From Pseudomonadota bacterium (GTDB lineage: Bacteria; Pseudomonadota; Gammaproteobacteria; Burkholderiales; REEB80): a DNA stretch of 64,000 bases. Shown piece by piece: positions 57,748-64,000 of this stretch. Every line of letters starts with the position of its first letter. Position 1 is the first letter of the stretch. The DNA lies in assembly GCA_018971485.1 (NCBI GenBank), contig JAGXAQ010000002.1:1-64000 (forward strand), in the 5' to 3' direction. The notes beneath the pieces were generated by a model, which did not search any database, had not been told where the DNA came from, and worked only from the letters and a program-made list of their open reading frames with translations. The translations under genes and the position numbers were made by a program.

Positions 57748-59235
57748 ATGACTAAGCCAACCCATCAAAACCGGACCCTGCCCGAATCAGGCCAGCATGG
57801 CCTGGACCCGCAGGACTGGAACACCTTCTGCCAGCAGGCCCATACCATGCTGGACGACATGCTTCAGTCCATCGAGACCATTCGCGAACGACCTGTCTGG
57901 CAACCCATCCCCTCATCAGAAGAGGCCCTGTTTCATTCGGACCTGCCCCAATTACCAGAAGACATAAAAACTGTACACGAGCAGTTCATGAATCATATTC
58001 TTCCCTTTGGAGTTGGCAACATCCATCCCCGGTTCATGGGATGGGTTCACGGTGGGGGGAACATGGCTGGCATGATGGCTGAAATGCTAAGTGCAGGGCT
58101 TAATGCCAATCTTGGCGGCCGAAACCAAATCCCGATTTCTGTTGAGCAGGAAGTCATTGACTGGATGCGGCAATTATTTGGTTTTCCCGACGGTTCAAGC
58201 GGAATTTTTGTAACCGGCTCATCGTTGGCCAATCTCATCGGGCTATGGGTTGCCCGCAATACCGCCCTGGGTGACTCAATCAGGAAAAATGGGGTGCCTG
58301 CCGGAAAACTCACCGCCTACACTTCCAGCGCAGCTCACGCCAGTATCGCTCAGGCCTTTGATCTGGCAGGACTGGGGACGCACTGTTTAAGGACTATCCC
58401 TGTCAATGATCTCCACCAGATGGATCTGACTGCCCTTCAAATGGCAATTGATCAAGATCGGAAACAGCATCTCAAGCCATTTTTCATCGCAGCTACTGCA
58501 GGAACTGTCGATGTAGGTGCAATTGACAATCTTTCCGCCTTGGCACAACTGGCCAGAGCAGAAAAACTCTGGCTGCATGTGGATGGCGCACTAGGGGCCA
58601 TAACCATGCTGGCACCAAATCTGGCTCCCCTTCTGCAAGGCATCGAACAGGCAGACTCCCTGGCATTTGATCTCCACAAGCTTGGCCAGGTCCCTTATGA
58701 TGCAGGCATAATCCTGGTTCGCAATGGCCGTCAACATTACGAAACTTTTGCCTCGCAGGCCAGCTATCTTCACCGGGAACAGCAAGGCGTGGCAGGAGGC
58801 ACATTCTGGCCTTGTGACTATGGTCCGGATCTGTCACGCAGCTTTCGGGCCCTCAAGGCCTGGTTTACTTTCAAGGTCTATGGTGCAAAAAAAATGGGGG
58901 ACATGATCGCCCATGCCTGTGCTCTGGCCCAGTATATGGCAGCGTGCATCCGTTCCCAGCCTGATCTTGAACTATTGGCTCCGGTTACACTCAACATTGT
59001 CTGTTTTCGTTTCTGCTGCACAAACCCTGATGAAATCAACACACAGATTGTTCTCAGACTTCAAGAATCGGGCATTGCTGTACCTTCTACCACAAAGATA
59101 CACGGGAAACTGGCCATTCGCGCTGCCATCACCAACCATCGTACAACCTCGGAAGATATCGACATCCTGATCCAGTCGACCCAGACCCTGGGTCATGCAC
59201 TCTGCCAGGACAACCAGAAAAAGACTCCATCATGA
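57748..59235 (+). CDS. PLP-dependent group II amino-acid decarboxylase
   Basis: A fold-type I decarboxylase of the aromatic/glutamate group, about 495 aa. Visible: substrate region GNIHPRFMGWVHGGGNMAGM, FGFPDGSSGIFVTGSSLANL, catalytic HAS in SSAAHASIAQAF, cofactor Asp in LHVDGALGAI, and the PLP lysine in FDLHKLGQVPYDAG (His-Lys). The exact substrate amino acid cannot be read off. ATG 57748 (MTKPTHQNRTL) is chosen; the frame extends to a TTG 33 codons earlier. First main gene of the operon; its stop overlaps the next start (ATGA). Confidence 0.9.
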   Translation: MTKPTHQNRTLPESGQHGLDPQDWNTFCQQAHTMLDDMLQSIETIRERPVWQPIPSSEEALFHSDLPQLPEDIKTVHEQFMNHILPFGVGNIHPRFMGWVHGGGNMAGMMAEMLSAGLNANLGGRNQIPISVEQEVIDWMRQLFGFPDGSSGIFVTGSSLANLIGLWVARNTALGDSIRKNGVPAGKLTAYTSSAAHASIAQAFDLAGLGTHCLRTIPVNDLHQMDLTALQMAIDQDRKQHLKPFFIAATAGTVDVGAIDNLSALAQLARAEKLWLHVDGALGAITMLAPNLAPLLQGIEQADSLAFDLHKLGQVPYDAGIILVRNGRQHYETFASQASYLHREQQGVAGGTFWPCDYGPDLSRSFRALKAWFTFKVYGAKKMGDMIAHACALAQYMAACIRSQPDLELLAPVTLNIVCFRFCCTNPDEINTQIVLRLQESGIAVPSTTKIHGKLAIRAAITNHRTTSEDIDILIQSTQTLGHALCQDNQKKTPS

Positions 59236-60485
59236 CTTTCATCCCGTCCCTAAGCCTACACCAGCCTTCAACTGAATCCGGTTCATTGAAAGGGTTAGCC
59301 CACTGGATGAGGCTTGCCCTGTCCGGACAGGATCTTGCCCCTTGCGCCCAGGAACTGATTGCCCGTGCTCAAGCACATCCGGATGATGCAAATGCCTTAA
59401 TGGACCTATCCATCATCCTTCAGTTAAACCACAGTCGTGAACTGGCCCTTGAACTTCAAAACGAAGCCCTGTCAATCAAACCGCTCTATCATGTCTGGTC
59501 AGATCGGCCTCACCGCATCAGGCTTTTAGCTTTATGCACACCCGGCGATCTCATGGCGAACACACCCCTTGAATGCCTTCTGGAAAATTCAGACATCAGC
59601 CTGGACCTGCTCTATGTTGCCTCCCATCTCCCGCTGCCCAAGAATATTCCAGAGCATGATGTGGCTTTTATGGCCATCGCGGAATCCGATCCGAACCGGG
59701 CCATACTGACCCGGATGCAGCCCATCGTCCAGAACTGGCCCCGCCCATTCATCAATCGACCCTTACCCATTCTCAATCTTGCCCGGGAAACAGCCTATAC
59801 ATTGGTTAGGGACGAACCACTGATTGAATACCCTGCAACATTCCGGATTCAAAAATCGTCCCTGGAACAGGTCATCCTTCAACAGCAACCCTTACCCGGG
59901 CTGATTAACGGACCAGGATTCCCCATTATTATCCGGCCCATCGCTTCCCATGCCGGGCATGGTCTGGCCAGAATCAGCAGCCTGACAGAACTGGCTCACT
60001 ACCTTAAGAACCAGACCCAGCAGGAATTCTATGTTTCTCGATTCATCGACTACAGTTCAGCTGACGGGCTATTCCGTAAATTCAGGATTGTTTTCATTGA
60101 AGACAGGCCTTACCTGTGTCATATGGCCATTTCGGAACACTGGATGATACACTACCTTAATGCCGGAATGGAAAATAGCGAGGCCAAACGCCTGGAAGAA
60201 GCCTTGCACATGAACAGCTTCGACCATGATTTCGCCCTTCGCCATCAAAAGGCCTTCTCAATTCTGACCCAGCGCATCGGGCTTGACTATTTTGGAATGG
60301 ATTGTGCCGAAACCCGGGAAGGCAAGCTGCTTATTTTTGAAGTTGCCAGTGCCATGGTCGTTCATGCAATGGATCAAGGCGATGCATTTGCCTACAAATT
60401 ATCACCCATGAACAAGGTATTCTCAGCTTTTCGGGATCTGCTTATCCGAAAAAAACTCGAGGCATCCTCTCCTCCTGGCGACTAA
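59232..60485 (+). CDS. ATP-grasp family protein with TPR-like N terminus
   Basis: A 417-aa protein. Residues about 20-85 look like a tetratricopeptide pair (CAQELIARAQAHPDDANALM, then LSIILQLNHSRELALELQNEA). The C-terminal half is an ATP-grasp ligase fold: FPIIIRPIASHAGHGLARI, FYVSRFIDYSS followed by RKFRIVFIEDRPYLCHMAIS, and LDYFGMDCAETREGKLLIFE. Related uncharacterised TPR/ATP-grasp proteins of rhizobia and methylobacteria are remembered with E-A-N in the last metal motif; here it reads E-V-A, so one metal-binding Asn is replaced. It probably forms an amide bond to an amino-acid-like product. Overlaps the decarboxylase by four bases. Confidence 0.7.
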   Translation: MTFIPSLSLHQPSTESGSLKGLAHWMRLALSGQDLAPCAQELIARAQAHPDDANALMDLSIILQLNHSRELALELQNEALSIKPLYHVWSDRPHRIRLLALCTPGDLMANTPLECLLENSDISLDLLYVASHLPLPKNIPEHDVAFMAIAESDPNRAILTRMQPIVQNWPRPFINRPLPILNLARETAYTLVRDEPLIEYPATFRIQKSSLEQVILQQQPLPGLINGPGFPIIIRPIASHAGHGLARISSLTELAHYLKNQTQQEFYVSRFIDYSSADGLFRKFRIVFIEDRPYLCHMAISEHWMIHYLNAGMENSEAKRLEEALHMNSFDHDFALRHQKAFSILTQRIGLDYFGMDCAETREGKLLIFEVASAMVVHAMDQGDAFAYKLSPMNKVFSAFRDLLIRKKLEASSPPGD

Positions 60486-60486
60486 A

Positions 60487-62121
60487 ATGCACTCAAAACC
60501 CGCTTGCCTGCATTCACCTACCCCTCAGGAGAATCAATCTGACTGCACTGCTGCACTGCCCAGACTGAAAACACTGCTTATAAGTGGTGGAGATGAGCGA
60601 CTTCTTCTGAACCCGGAAACTGGCTACAACCGCTATTACTGTCCTCCTTACCCGGAAGACTGTCAGGCGGCCTTCGGCTCAACTACTGCATCTGCCATTT
60701 CCAGATCCAGCTATGACAAGCTGAAGCAATACCGGAACCATCTTCTGCGCCAACTTCCCTGCTTACACTCCACAGGGCTCTATGAACAGGAAATGCAGCA
60801 ATTAAGGCTGTCCTTCCTGGACACGGGAGAATTTGAAACAAACAGCAGGCCTGACCTGATTTTTGCCGCCTCCGGAACAGATGCCCTCTACATCGCGGCC
60901 AGGCTCTGTGCCAGCCTGAACAACCAGCCTTTGTCCATTCTTATGATTGAACCCACCGAATCCGGGCGGGGAGTGCCTGATGCATTAAAAGGACAATGGG
61001 GGGCCCATCAACCTACCCTGCATTCTGACTCCCCACCCTCTTCTATCACCCGCACCAATCTTCCTGACGTTTACGCCATCCCCTTCAGGCAGCCTGATGG
61101 CTCCTTGCGGAATTCCCAGGAGATAGACGCCGGATTTGTTACCTTGGCGGAAAAAGCAATCGCAAGCAACCGGCGGGTTCTCATTGTCCTGACGGATGTC
61201 TCAAAAACAGGTGGCCTGGCTCCAGGCCTTGCCTGCTGCCTGAAACTGGCCCAGCAATACCCGAACAATATCCACCTGCTGGTAGATGCCTGCCAGTTCA
61301 GAATATCACCTCAAACCCTCAAAACCTATCTCAGCCATGGATTCATGATTGCCCTGACCGGATCCAAGTTTCTGACAGGGCCTGCCTTCAGCGGAGCACT
61401 TCTTATCCCTGACAGGCTCAAGGAACGCTATCGGCAAGGCCCCTTTCCTGAAGAACTGGCCGGATATGGCGCCAGGGGGGACTGGCCTGAAAACTGGCCC
61501 TGGCGCTCAAAACTTCCTGAAAGAGCCAACTTCGGCCTCCTCTTTCGATGGACAGCAGCGCTGGAAGAATGGAAAGCCTTTCTTGAACTACCCCATACCA
61601 GCCTTGTCCCCTTCCTGTTCCAGTTCAGGGAAGCCCTCCTCAAACGATTTCACAAGGACCCATTATTCGAGCTTTTACCCGTGCCAGATATCCACAGGCA
61701 ACCCCTGTCCATCCAAGACAGCTGGGACAGCATCCAGACCATCTTCCCATTCAGGCTGTATCACAACGGGCCTGATCCTATCCATCTTAGCAGGCATGAG
61801 ACCCAGCAAACCTACAAATCCTTGCAACTCGCCCATTCCCATCCCCAATCAACACAGGCTGGCTCCAAGGGATCAGGCCTTGCCCGCTATCAGCTAGGCC
61901 AACCCGTATACTGGGGGGCCAACCCGGATGCATGCCCCGGCGCCCTTCGCCTGTCCCTGAGTTCAAGACTTATCATTGAGGCAGTATCAGGGGGGGCGTT
62001 ATCCAGGGATAACGTTATTCAAAGAGCCCTGAACACCCTCGACAGAATAGCCGTCACGATTCATTCCCTCCAGGCTTTCACTTCGGACCGCCCCAATCAA
62101 GACCTCGATCCTGTGCAATAA
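60487..62121 (+). CDS. PLP-dependent transferase-fold protein of unrecognised subfamily
   Basis: A 544-aa protein starting one base after the ATP-grasp stop. Fold-type I PLP features: AASGTDALYIAARLC for the phosphate cup (about residues 127-141), LLVDACQFRIS with the cofactor Asp (about 262), and a lysine in IALTGSKFLTGPAFSGALLI (about 292) as Schiff base. The N-terminal segment LLISGGDERLLLNPETGYNR is distinctive and unknown to me. Aminotransferase, lyase or condensing enzyme are all possible. Operon position links it to the decarboxylase and ATP-grasp protein. Confidence 0.6.
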   Translation: MHSKPACLHSPTPQENQSDCTAALPRLKTLLISGGDERLLLNPETGYNRYYCPPYPEDCQAAFGSTTASAISRSSYDKLKQYRNHLLRQLPCLHSTGLYEQEMQQLRLSFLDTGEFETNSRPDLIFAASGTDALYIAARLCASLNNQPLSILMIEPTESGRGVPDALKGQWGAHQPTLHSDSPPSSITRTNLPDVYAIPFRQPDGSLRNSQEIDAGFVTLAEKAIASNRRVLIVLTDVSKTGGLAPGLACCLKLAQQYPNNIHLLVDACQFRISPQTLKTYLSHGFMIALTGSKFLTGPAFSGALLIPDRLKERYRQGPFPEELAGYGARGDWPENWPWRSKLPERANFGLLFRWTAALEEWKAFLELPHTSLVPFLFQFREALLKRFHKDPLFELLPVPDIHRQPLSIQDSWDSIQTIFPFRLYHNGPDPIHLSRHETQQTYKSLQLAHSHPQSTQAGSKGSGLARYQLGQPVYWGANPDACPGALRLSLSSRLIIEAVSGGALSRDNVIQRALNTLDRIAVTIHSLQAFTSDRPNQDLDPVQ

Positions 62122-62158
62122 TACAACTACCGATATTTAATTCCTGTAGGATTTTGCC

Positions 62159-63889
62159 GTGCAGTTTGATACTGAAATGCAAAAAAGAGGGCTTCGATAC
62201 CTTAGGGCCTTAACCCGATGGGATATTCTGGCTATCCTTCTTATCCTGACCCTGTTGCTGATTCTCGGCCTGATTGTCCGCCAAACCATCTCCCCTTTTT
62301 CTGTGGCAGCCCAACCCGATATTTCCCTGTCTGTCTGGAAACTGCCTGGATACACCCTTAAAACCACTTTCAGGATGCTGACCGGCTTACTGGCTTCTAT
62401 CCTGTTCACCTTCGGTTATGCCACCCTTGCCGCCAAGAACCGGCGCGCAGAAATGATCCTCCTGCCCATCCTTGATGTACTGCAGTCTGTTCCTGTTCTA
62501 GGCTATCTCTCATTCATATCGGTGCTGTTTCTTGATCTGTTTCCCCACACCTGGCTTGGGCCGGAACTGGCGGCCATTTTTGCCATCTTTACCGCCCAGG
62601 CCTGGAACATGACGTTCAGCTTCTACCAGGCCCTAAAAACGATCCCCCATGATCTGGATGAAGCCTGCCGATGCTTCCGGCTGACAGCCTGGCAAAGATT
62701 CTGGCGTCTCGAAGTACCATTTGCCTTTCCTGGTCTTGTCTGGAACATGATGATGTCCATGGCAGGAGGCTGGTTTTTTATCGTAGCCGCTGAAGCGATC
62801 ACCGTGGGCCACCTGCACATCGTTCTTCCCGGGCTTGGTTCTTACCTGGCCAAAGCCATTTCAACCCGGGATCTTCCTGCTGTAGGATGGTCCATCCTGG
62901 CTATGGCTATCGCAATTATCCTGTGTGATCAACTCCTTTTCAGGCCTTTGGTCGTATGGGCCGATCACTTTCGTTTCGAGCAGGAGCAAACTAGGATCCA
63001 CCCTAAAAGCTGGGTATGGAGACTGTTCAGAAAGGCAAGAATGGTTCGCATGGCCACCCGGCCAGCCCGCCAGGGGTTACGCTGGCTCATGAAAGCCCCC
63101 TTGCCCCAACTCTCCCGCCGGAACCGATCTGCCCGCCTCAACCACAAGCTTGATGGCACTATCGGATGGGCACTATTAACAGGCCTTCTAATACTGATGG
63201 CCTGGAAGCTATACTGCCTCATCCGGCCAGGTCTCACCTGCCAGGATGTACTGATTGTTCTGGAAAACGGAGCCATCACATTAACCCGGGTCATTATCCT
63301 GACCGCCCTGGCCAGCCTCGTCTGGGTTCCATTAGGCATCGAGATAGGCCTTCGTCCCAGACTCAGCCAGTGGGTTCAGCCTATAGCCCAGTTTCTGGCT
63401 GCCTTTCCCGCCAACCTTTTTTTTCCGGTTGCAGTACTGCTTATTGTCAAATACCACCTGACCCCTTCAATCTGGCTTAGCCCACTCATGATTCTAGGCA
63501 CGCAATGGTATATCCTCTTTAACGTGATAGCAGGAGCAAGCGCTTTTCCAAAGGATCTGAAGGAAGCCGCAGAAATGCTGCGTGTCAAAGGATGGAAACG
63601 TTGGCGCAAGATCCTTATTCCTGGCATCCTGCCCTATTATGTTACCGGAGCCATTACAGCCTCCGGTGGTGCCTGGAATGCAAGCATAGTATCTGAAATC
63701 GTTAATTGGGGACCAACCACGCTTAATGGATCAGGATTAGGGGCCTACATCGCGCAAATGACCATCAACGGAGACTATCCCCGGATTGCCCTGGGTATTG
63801 CCGTCATGTCCTCTATCGTCATGGCCACCAACCATCTTGTCTGGCGACCCCTTTATACCTTTGCTGCACGGCACAACCAGCCTGGATAA
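62159..63889 (+). CDS. Fused two-domain ABC transporter permease (NitT/TauT-like)
   Basis: A 576-aa inner membrane protein with two BPD-type permease domains in one chain. Each half carries the EAA loop that contacts the ATPase: PHDLDEACRCFRLTAWQRFW (first, about 163-182) and PKDLKEAAEMLRVKGWKRWR (second, about 464-483). About twelve membrane segments, with a basic cytosolic linker in the middle (RKARMVRMATRPARQGLRW). Such fused permeases usually pair with an ATPase bearing an extra C-terminal domain, and lack a known binding protein. Start GTG 62159 behind TAGGA; ATG 62177 is the alternative. Confidence 0.88.
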   Translation: MQFDTEMQKRGLRYLRALTRWDILAILLILTLLLILGLIVRQTISPFSVAAQPDISLSVWKLPGYTLKTTFRMLTGLLASILFTFGYATLAAKNRRAEMILLPILDVLQSVPVLGYLSFISVLFLDLFPHTWLGPELAAIFAIFTAQAWNMTFSFYQALKTIPHDLDEACRCFRLTAWQRFWRLEVPFAFPGLVWNMMMSMAGGWFFIVAAEAITVGHLHIVLPGLGSYLAKAISTRDLPAVGWSILAMAIAIILCDQLLFRPLVVWADHFRFEQEQTRIHPKSWVWRLFRKARMVRMATRPARQGLRWLMKAPLPQLSRRNRSARLNHKLDGTIGWALLTGLLILMAWKLYCLIRPGLTCQDVLIVLENGAITLTRVIILTALASLVWVPLGIEIGLRPRLSQWVQPIAQFLAAFPANLFFPVAVLLIVKYHLTPSIWLSPLMILGTQWYILFNVIAGASAFPKDLKEAAEMLRVKGWKRWRKILIPGILPYYVTGAITASGGAWNASIVSEIVNWGPTTLNGSGLGAYIAQMTINGDYPRIALGIAVMSSIVMATNHLVWRPLYTFAARHNQPG

Positions 63890-63895
63890 AAAATC

Positions 63896-64000
63896 ATGCC
63901 CCGAATCGAAAACATTCCCGTAATCGAAATGAGCCGGATCTGCATGGGATTCGCAAAATCATCCGGTGAATCCCTGCCTGTACTGACCAACATCAGCCTG
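63896..64000 (+). CDS. ABC transporter ATP-binding protein (partial, cut by right edge)
   Basis: Only 35 codons are inside the window: MPRIENIPVIEMSRICMGFA and then a segment ending VLTNISL. The pattern of a strand, ..SICMGF.., then VL..ISL, matches the opening of an ABC ATPase just before Walker A. It begins 6 nt after the permease stop, so it should be the ATPase of the fused permease. Confidence 0.75.
   Translation, partial: MPRIENIPVIEMSRICMGFAKSSGESLPVLTNISL

Follow-up and report, generated by a model that had tools for sequence, protein, structure and literature searches.

A conserved decarboxylase, ATP-grasp and PLP-enzyme gene module is linked to bacterial flagella

At the right-hand edge of the DNA analyzed here, a window of 64,000 nucleotides (contig C1, positions 1-64000) from a 1.93 Mb Pseudomonadota genome, five plus-strand genes are packed closely together, and the question arises as to whether they constitute one pathway and what they might make. 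The first-pass annotation had proposed a single operon for the synthesis, or use, and transport of an amine- or amino acid-derived small molecule. The five reading frames, listed in Table 1, are all present as it described them, and the tight spacing of the entire set is indeed operon-like: DEC and ATG overlap by four bases, and the gaps that follow are 1 nt (ATG/PLP2), 37 nt (PLP2/permease), and 6 nt (permease/ATPase). The closest named relative in the scan is the metagenome-assembled genome Pseudomonadota bacterium REEB109; small genome size, gene content, and relatives together hint that the source may be Ferrovum or a neighboring genus.

Table 1. Genes of the array at the window edge.
Gene	Description	Position	Strand	Remarks
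DEC	495-aa PLP-dependent group II amino acid decarboxylase	57748..59235	+	First gene of three-gene module
ATG	417-aa ATP-grasp ligase, TPR-like helices at the N terminus	59232..60485	+	Module core gene
PLP2	Class V fold PLP-dependent enzyme, 544 aa, family without name	60487..62121	+	
ABC permease	Fused (duplicated) permease, 576 aa	62159..63889	+	Two PF00528 stretches (Pfam)
ABC ATPase (start)	ATPase with C-terminal AAA-associated domain	63896..64000	+	Complete protein of 437 aa; reading frame stops at contig position 65209

Pfam searches confirmed the assignments of the decarboxylase (PF00282), the two-part permease (two BPD_transp_1 domains), and the ATPase, the complete reading frame of which (L002:7896-9209) contains both ABC_tran (PF00005) and AAA_assoc_C (PF09821). 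The absence of a substrate-binding protein, noted previously up to the edge of the window, holds beyond it as well: in the sequence inspected past the edge none lies 3' of the ATPase, and the next genes are convergent. By sequence reading, these convergent genes (L002:9314-17752; contig 65314-73752) form a nitrate assimilation cluster with an MFS transporter, a NirB-like nitrite reductase, CobA, and a nitrate-reductase-type molybdoprotein.

The permease was found in 15 of 100 relatives, and is linked to the upstream genes only in G000 and G001, both belonging to one genus, the order being kept in the two genomes. The ATPase adjoins the fused permease in all 12 loci checked, and in five genomes (G033, G045, G077, G097, and G098) the ABC pair and the enzyme genes are both present but far apart. 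The pair has the same domain content and gene order as the duplicated-permease TauC/NrtB-type ABC pairs with an AAA_assoc_C ATPase; it differs in its linkage, in this genus only, to the enzyme genes. The five packed genes are thus two units, namely an enzyme module (DEC, ATG, and PLP2) and an independent, conserved ABC pair joined to it in a single genus. A five-gene unit including transport was rejected as a general arrangement because other genomes have the pair by itself; as for transport, the earlier proposal therefore describes an arrangement local to one genus.

DEC scores 217.9 bits against PF00282 (cut-off 27, E=2.4e-64). Lys 311, His 197, and Asp 279 are invariant among 15 diverse homologues, for which the mean column identity is 69%. 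The closest sequence in the PDB is that of a tryptophan decarboxylase (4obu), and the score against the L-2,4-diaminobutyrate decarboxylase equivalog NF052646 is 185 bits, with a cut-off of 900. The family profile and the catalytic lysine, histidine, and aspartate mark DEC as a group II PLP decarboxylase.

No Pfam family matched ATG above cut-off. Among the curated family profiles, the RimK/LysX-type matches all fall below their thresholds, with the RimK-type ligase model TIGR00768 giving 18.8 bits against a cut-off of 143.4. The AlphaFold model (pLDDT 91.4) reveals an ATP-grasp fold preceded by TPR-like helical hairpins, and it matches the D-Ala-D-Ala ligases (Ddl), LysX, and ArgX with E values of about 1e-11. 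The predicted fold places ATG, which is conserved across 60 homologues, within the ATP-grasp superfamily. The TPR_12 profile gives 13.6 bits for the window protein (cut-off 30.1); helical hairpins are present in its model, and TPRs are clear in the relatives at L090 and L138. With RimK, LysX, ArgX, and the D-Ala-D-Ala ligases ATG shares the fold and, presumably, acyl-phosphate chemistry; it is unlike them in scoring far below their family cut-offs and in carrying the TPR-like N-terminus.

The second PLP enzyme, PLP2, likewise had no Pfam match above cut-off, PF00266 (aminotransferase class V) included. NCBIfam yielded a sub-cut-off match only, and a profile of 16 relatives found no sequence match in the PDB. 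Its model (pLDDT 86.5) displays the class V architecture of PLP fold type I, and the nearest folds retrieved with Foldseek are those of Egt2, SufS (both with E values of about 1e-12), and LolT. The residues invariant in 72 relatives are Ser 129-Gly 130-Thr 131, Asp 267, Gln 270, Lys 294, and Arg 488. On the basis of the modeled fold and the invariant Lys 294 and Asp 267, PLP2 is assigned to fold type I, class V; by analogy, Lys 294 would be the Schiff-base lysine and Arg 488 the presumed carboxylate-binding arginine. The overall fold and invariant PLP-site residues are common to Egt2, SufS, and LolT, from which PLP2 differs in its 12-16% identity, its long insertions, and the lack of a sequence-family match. 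The earlier reading of an ATP-grasp protein followed by a second PLP enzyme, neither belonging to a named subfamily, is borne out by the predicted structures and by the Pfam, NCBIfam, and PDB profile searches. In the Sulfuricella lineage, PLP2 and a C-terminal methyltransferase domain are contained in one protein of 837 aa (L057:7025-9538, minus strand).

When named genomes were scanned with the PLP2 profile, 80 loci emerged, and their contents were determined by six-frame profile searches. DEC, ATG, and PLP2 occur together in 58 of them, a recurrence far beyond chance. PLP2 stands alone in 13 loci, 12 of which are rhizobial, and accompanies ATG without DEC in the remaining nine, several of these being on short contigs. 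Even where DEC is not linked to the cassette, the genome still has it, as in G034, in which it lies on another contig. The first-pass annotation had suggested that co-occurrence of the two unnamed families with the decarboxylase and permease be examined: the association with the decarboxylase extends across many taxa, and that with the permease is confined to this genus. Among relatives of the same order, PLP2 was found in 13 and ATG in 19 of 100 genomes. The module is distributed among the Burkholderiales, Methylococcales, deltaproteobacteria, Caulobacteraceae, Riflebacteria, and Fibrobacteria, and environmental carriers include Gallionella, Sulfuricella, Methylobacter, Variovorax, Geobacter, and Caulobacteraceae. 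The commonest order is DEC-ATG-PLP2. In Rhizobium tumorigenes it is ATG-PLP2-DEC, in two Caulobacteraceae loci (L104 and L144) PLP2 lies opposite ATG-DEC in a divergent layout, and at L060 and L130 DEC and ATG are fused into a single reading frame. Some modules are plasmid-borne. Proteins of 215 aa (L115:11639-12286, Mangrovitalea) and 263 aa (L122:11538-12329, a Geobacter metagenome-assembled genome), neither with a Pfam match, adjoin the module.

The DEC-ATG-PLP2 set is a real and widespread module that has apparently not been described before; no account of this combination of genes turned up in searches of open-licence papers. A graspetide or other RiPP pathway was considered and rejected, for no conserved precursor reading frame lies near the cassette, and the recurrent short flanking frames proved to be the FlgM/FlgN genes of one clade and the end of PLP2. 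A survey of graspetides mentions neither a decarboxylase nor PLP (PMC8939145).

In some genomes the partners are exchanged. ATG is paired with a SerC paralogue, SerC', in eight loci (L058, L065, L067, L068, L069, L072, L187, and L205), and in the three scanned it is of the PRK12462 type. A canonical second SerC scores above the curated cut-off in five of six SerC' genomes, the sixth (G090) being an incomplete assembly, which rules out SerC' as the sole SerC of those five. DEC is missing from five of the six. L138 and L141 contain, in place of ATG, a longer TPR-ATP-grasp protein after DEC and PLP2. G016 harbors a compact cluster (L074:8102-18857) with an ATP-grasp protein (ATPgrasp_ST), PLP2, an Orn/Arg-type decarboxylase, a two-module NRPS with a thioesterase, and a PPTase-like gene. 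Such replacements support a shared logic, and the PLP2 relatives beside NRPS genes in rhizobia and G016 suggest that its part in small-molecule chemistry is broader. On rhizobial plasmids these relatives lie directly behind giant NRPS genes (L051:15028-16563, L052:15085-16620, and L054:14971-16467), and are followed in L052 by a weakly SerK-like protein and in L051 by SagB-type dehydrogenase and PPTase genes.

The flanks of the module loci showed flagellar genes, and a panel of 30 flagellar proteins was therefore built from these loci and searched in all of them by tblastn; ten proteins from the loci, nine of them panel members, were checked with Pfam. Flagellar genes lie within 10 kb in 22 of 67 non-rhizobial loci, often less than 1 kb away. 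When modules flanked by 8 kb or more are compared with 20-kb segments taken at random from carrier genomes, the corresponding values are 20/49 and 1/20 (Fisher p=0.002, with related loci non-independent because about eight Gallionella-type loci have one common layout). In the lone random match, fliP and flhB lie close to an FlhA that scores below cut-off, possibly representing type III secretion. The arrangements differ between lineages: the cassette is found between flgM and flgA in flgN-flgM-cassette-flgA, near fliT-fliS-fliD-flaG-fliC, between fliE-fliF-fliG-fliH and fliS-fliD, or, in Riflebacteria, beside fliC-flgK. Loci missed by the panel include three adjoined by FlaG (L098, L134, and L143), one by FliT (L106), and two (L125 and L132) with nearby MCP genes, assigned by sequence reading. 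The class sample contributed L184, where a DEC-ATG pair adjoins fliC genes, and L187, where ATG-SerC' adjoins fliS-fliD-fliC; none of the seven ATG-SerC' loci of the order sample is flagella-linked. In G034, two divergent TPR-ATP-grasp proteins lie directly upstream of flhB-flhA-flhF. They comprise 832 and 543 aa (L157:7052-12352) and are accompanied by a Ser/Asn-rich protein of 211 aa and no known family. The proteins that take the place of ATG in L138 and L141 are relatives of this kind.

The association extends to entire genomes. FlhA is present in 19/19 ATG genomes of the order versus 53/81 others, and in 8/8 ATG genomes of the class sample, in which its overall frequency is 148/274. The window genome is in both samples. 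All 26 sampled ATG genomes, spanning 18 families, contain FlhA versus 191 of 345 others (pooled Fisher p=4.5e-7, a value uncorrected for phylogeny); FlhA is itself common. The module is linked to flagella, and this link is new, lying beyond the scope of the first-pass annotation. Note that over half of the modules, including the window and plasmid copies, are without flagellar neighbors. The flagellar cluster of the window genome is located on contig C22, where flgM and flgA are close together with no module between them. A search upstream of the modules for a common sigma-28, sigma-54, or sigma-70 promoter found none beyond a few loci; L087 has a perfect sigma-28-like site.

Given that the module is conserved, seen only in flagellated sampled bacteria, and often situated beside flagellar genes, it probably makes and attaches a group linked to swimming. 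Our preferred reading, held tentatively and at somewhat under even confidence, is a flagellum-associated modification module in which ATG ligates an amine or amino acid provided by the PLP enzymes, perhaps onto a filament protein. DEC would decarboxylate an amino acid to an amine, and PLP2, or SerC' in other genomes, would make or remodel an amino acid-type building block. ATG, guided by its TPR-like domain, would then activate a carboxylate with ATP and join it to the amine or to an amino group. The flagellum is the likeliest setting, and the target might be a protein of the filament region, flagellin or FlaG for example, or a group carried by such a protein. The observed part comprises the genes and their association, fusions, replacements, and flagellar link, together with the modeled folds and the conserved catalytic sites; we infer that they make up one pathway, what bond is formed, and that the target is flagellar.

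Precedents for such a target exist. FlmG of Caulobacter crescentus is a TPR-guided flagellin modifier in which TPRs are joined to a glycosyltransferase (PMC7591256). It resembles ATG in that an N-terminal domain of TPR type (TPR-like in ATG) is fused to a modifying enzyme; FlmG transfers a sugar to flagellin, whereas ATG belongs to the ATP-grasp ligases and has PLP enzymes as partners. In Shewanella oneidensis, the ATP-grasp protein encoded by sfmE of sfmABCDE (412 aa) is needed for full flagellin modification (PMC3765264). That operon directs a nonulosonic acid-type modification without a PLP decarboxylase or PLP2. The type B flagellin-modification cluster of Clostridioides difficile contains an ATP-grasp gene, CDR20291_0245 (PMC5207246), but is glycosyltransferase-based and without the DEC or PLP2 families. 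The linkage to flagellar genes of known flagellin modification systems is found for the module as well, the window copy being unlinked. FlmG and the ATP-grasp genes of these clusters make a flagellar protein, or its attached group, a reasonable target. The unlinked modules, the plasmid copies, and the PLP2-NRPS context of rhizobia and G016 count against it, as do the lack of a general sigma-28 promoter and the unlinked ATG-SerC' loci of the order sample. The narrower proposal of a new flagellar modification, in which a TPR-guided ATP-grasp enzyme attaches a PLP-made amine or amino acid to flagellin or FlaG, is possible but rather doubtful.

Equally doubtful is a free small-molecule pathway, in which ATG would couple the amine from DEC to the amino acid from PLP2, giving a dipeptide-like amide for storage or secretion, with the ABC pair moving it in this genus and flagellar proximity reflecting insertion hot spots or co-regulation with motile growth. 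The NRPS and phosphopantetheinyl transferase genes beside rhizobial-plasmid PLP2 relatives, the G016 cluster with its different ATP-grasp protein and different PLP decarboxylase, an AMP-binding enzyme behind the module in L145, and the tight spacing of module and ABC pair in the window are all consistent with this. Most modules, however, have neither transporter nor NRPS, every sampled ATG carrier is flagellated, and in other genomes the ABC pair stands on its own. Several unlinked modules have chemotaxis, MCP, PAS, or sigma-54 regulator genes in their vicinity, which would fit the production of a cytoplasmic signal, cofactor, or stress metabolite for the control of chemotaxis or motility rather than a covalent modification. 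This is improbable, as filament and hook genes are commoner neighbors than signaling genes, and an ATP-grasp enzyme with a domain of the protein-binding type is atypical for a signal synthase. Least probable is a single catabolic or import operon, in which an ABC pair resembling nitrate and taurine systems, in an order conserved in both genomes of the genus, would import an anion such as a sulfonate for processing by the PLP and ATP-grasp enzymes, since the pair is module-linked in only two of 15 genomes, a binding protein is absent, and ATP-dependent ligation suits synthesis, not catabolism.

The module contains a PLP family that stands apart by sequence from those in Pfam, NCBIfam, and the PDB. 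Cultured carriers exist, and so the idea of a flagellar role is directly testable; non-pathogenic ones in which the module adjoins flagellar genes or lies near them are Sulfuriferula multivorans TTN, Sulfuricella sp. T08, and Undibacterium griseum, the last with flaG next to it. If the modification reading is true, a ligation route employing ATP-grasp and PLP enzymes would be added to flagellar modification, beside glycosylation, and two unnamed families, ATG and PLP2, would gain a testable role.
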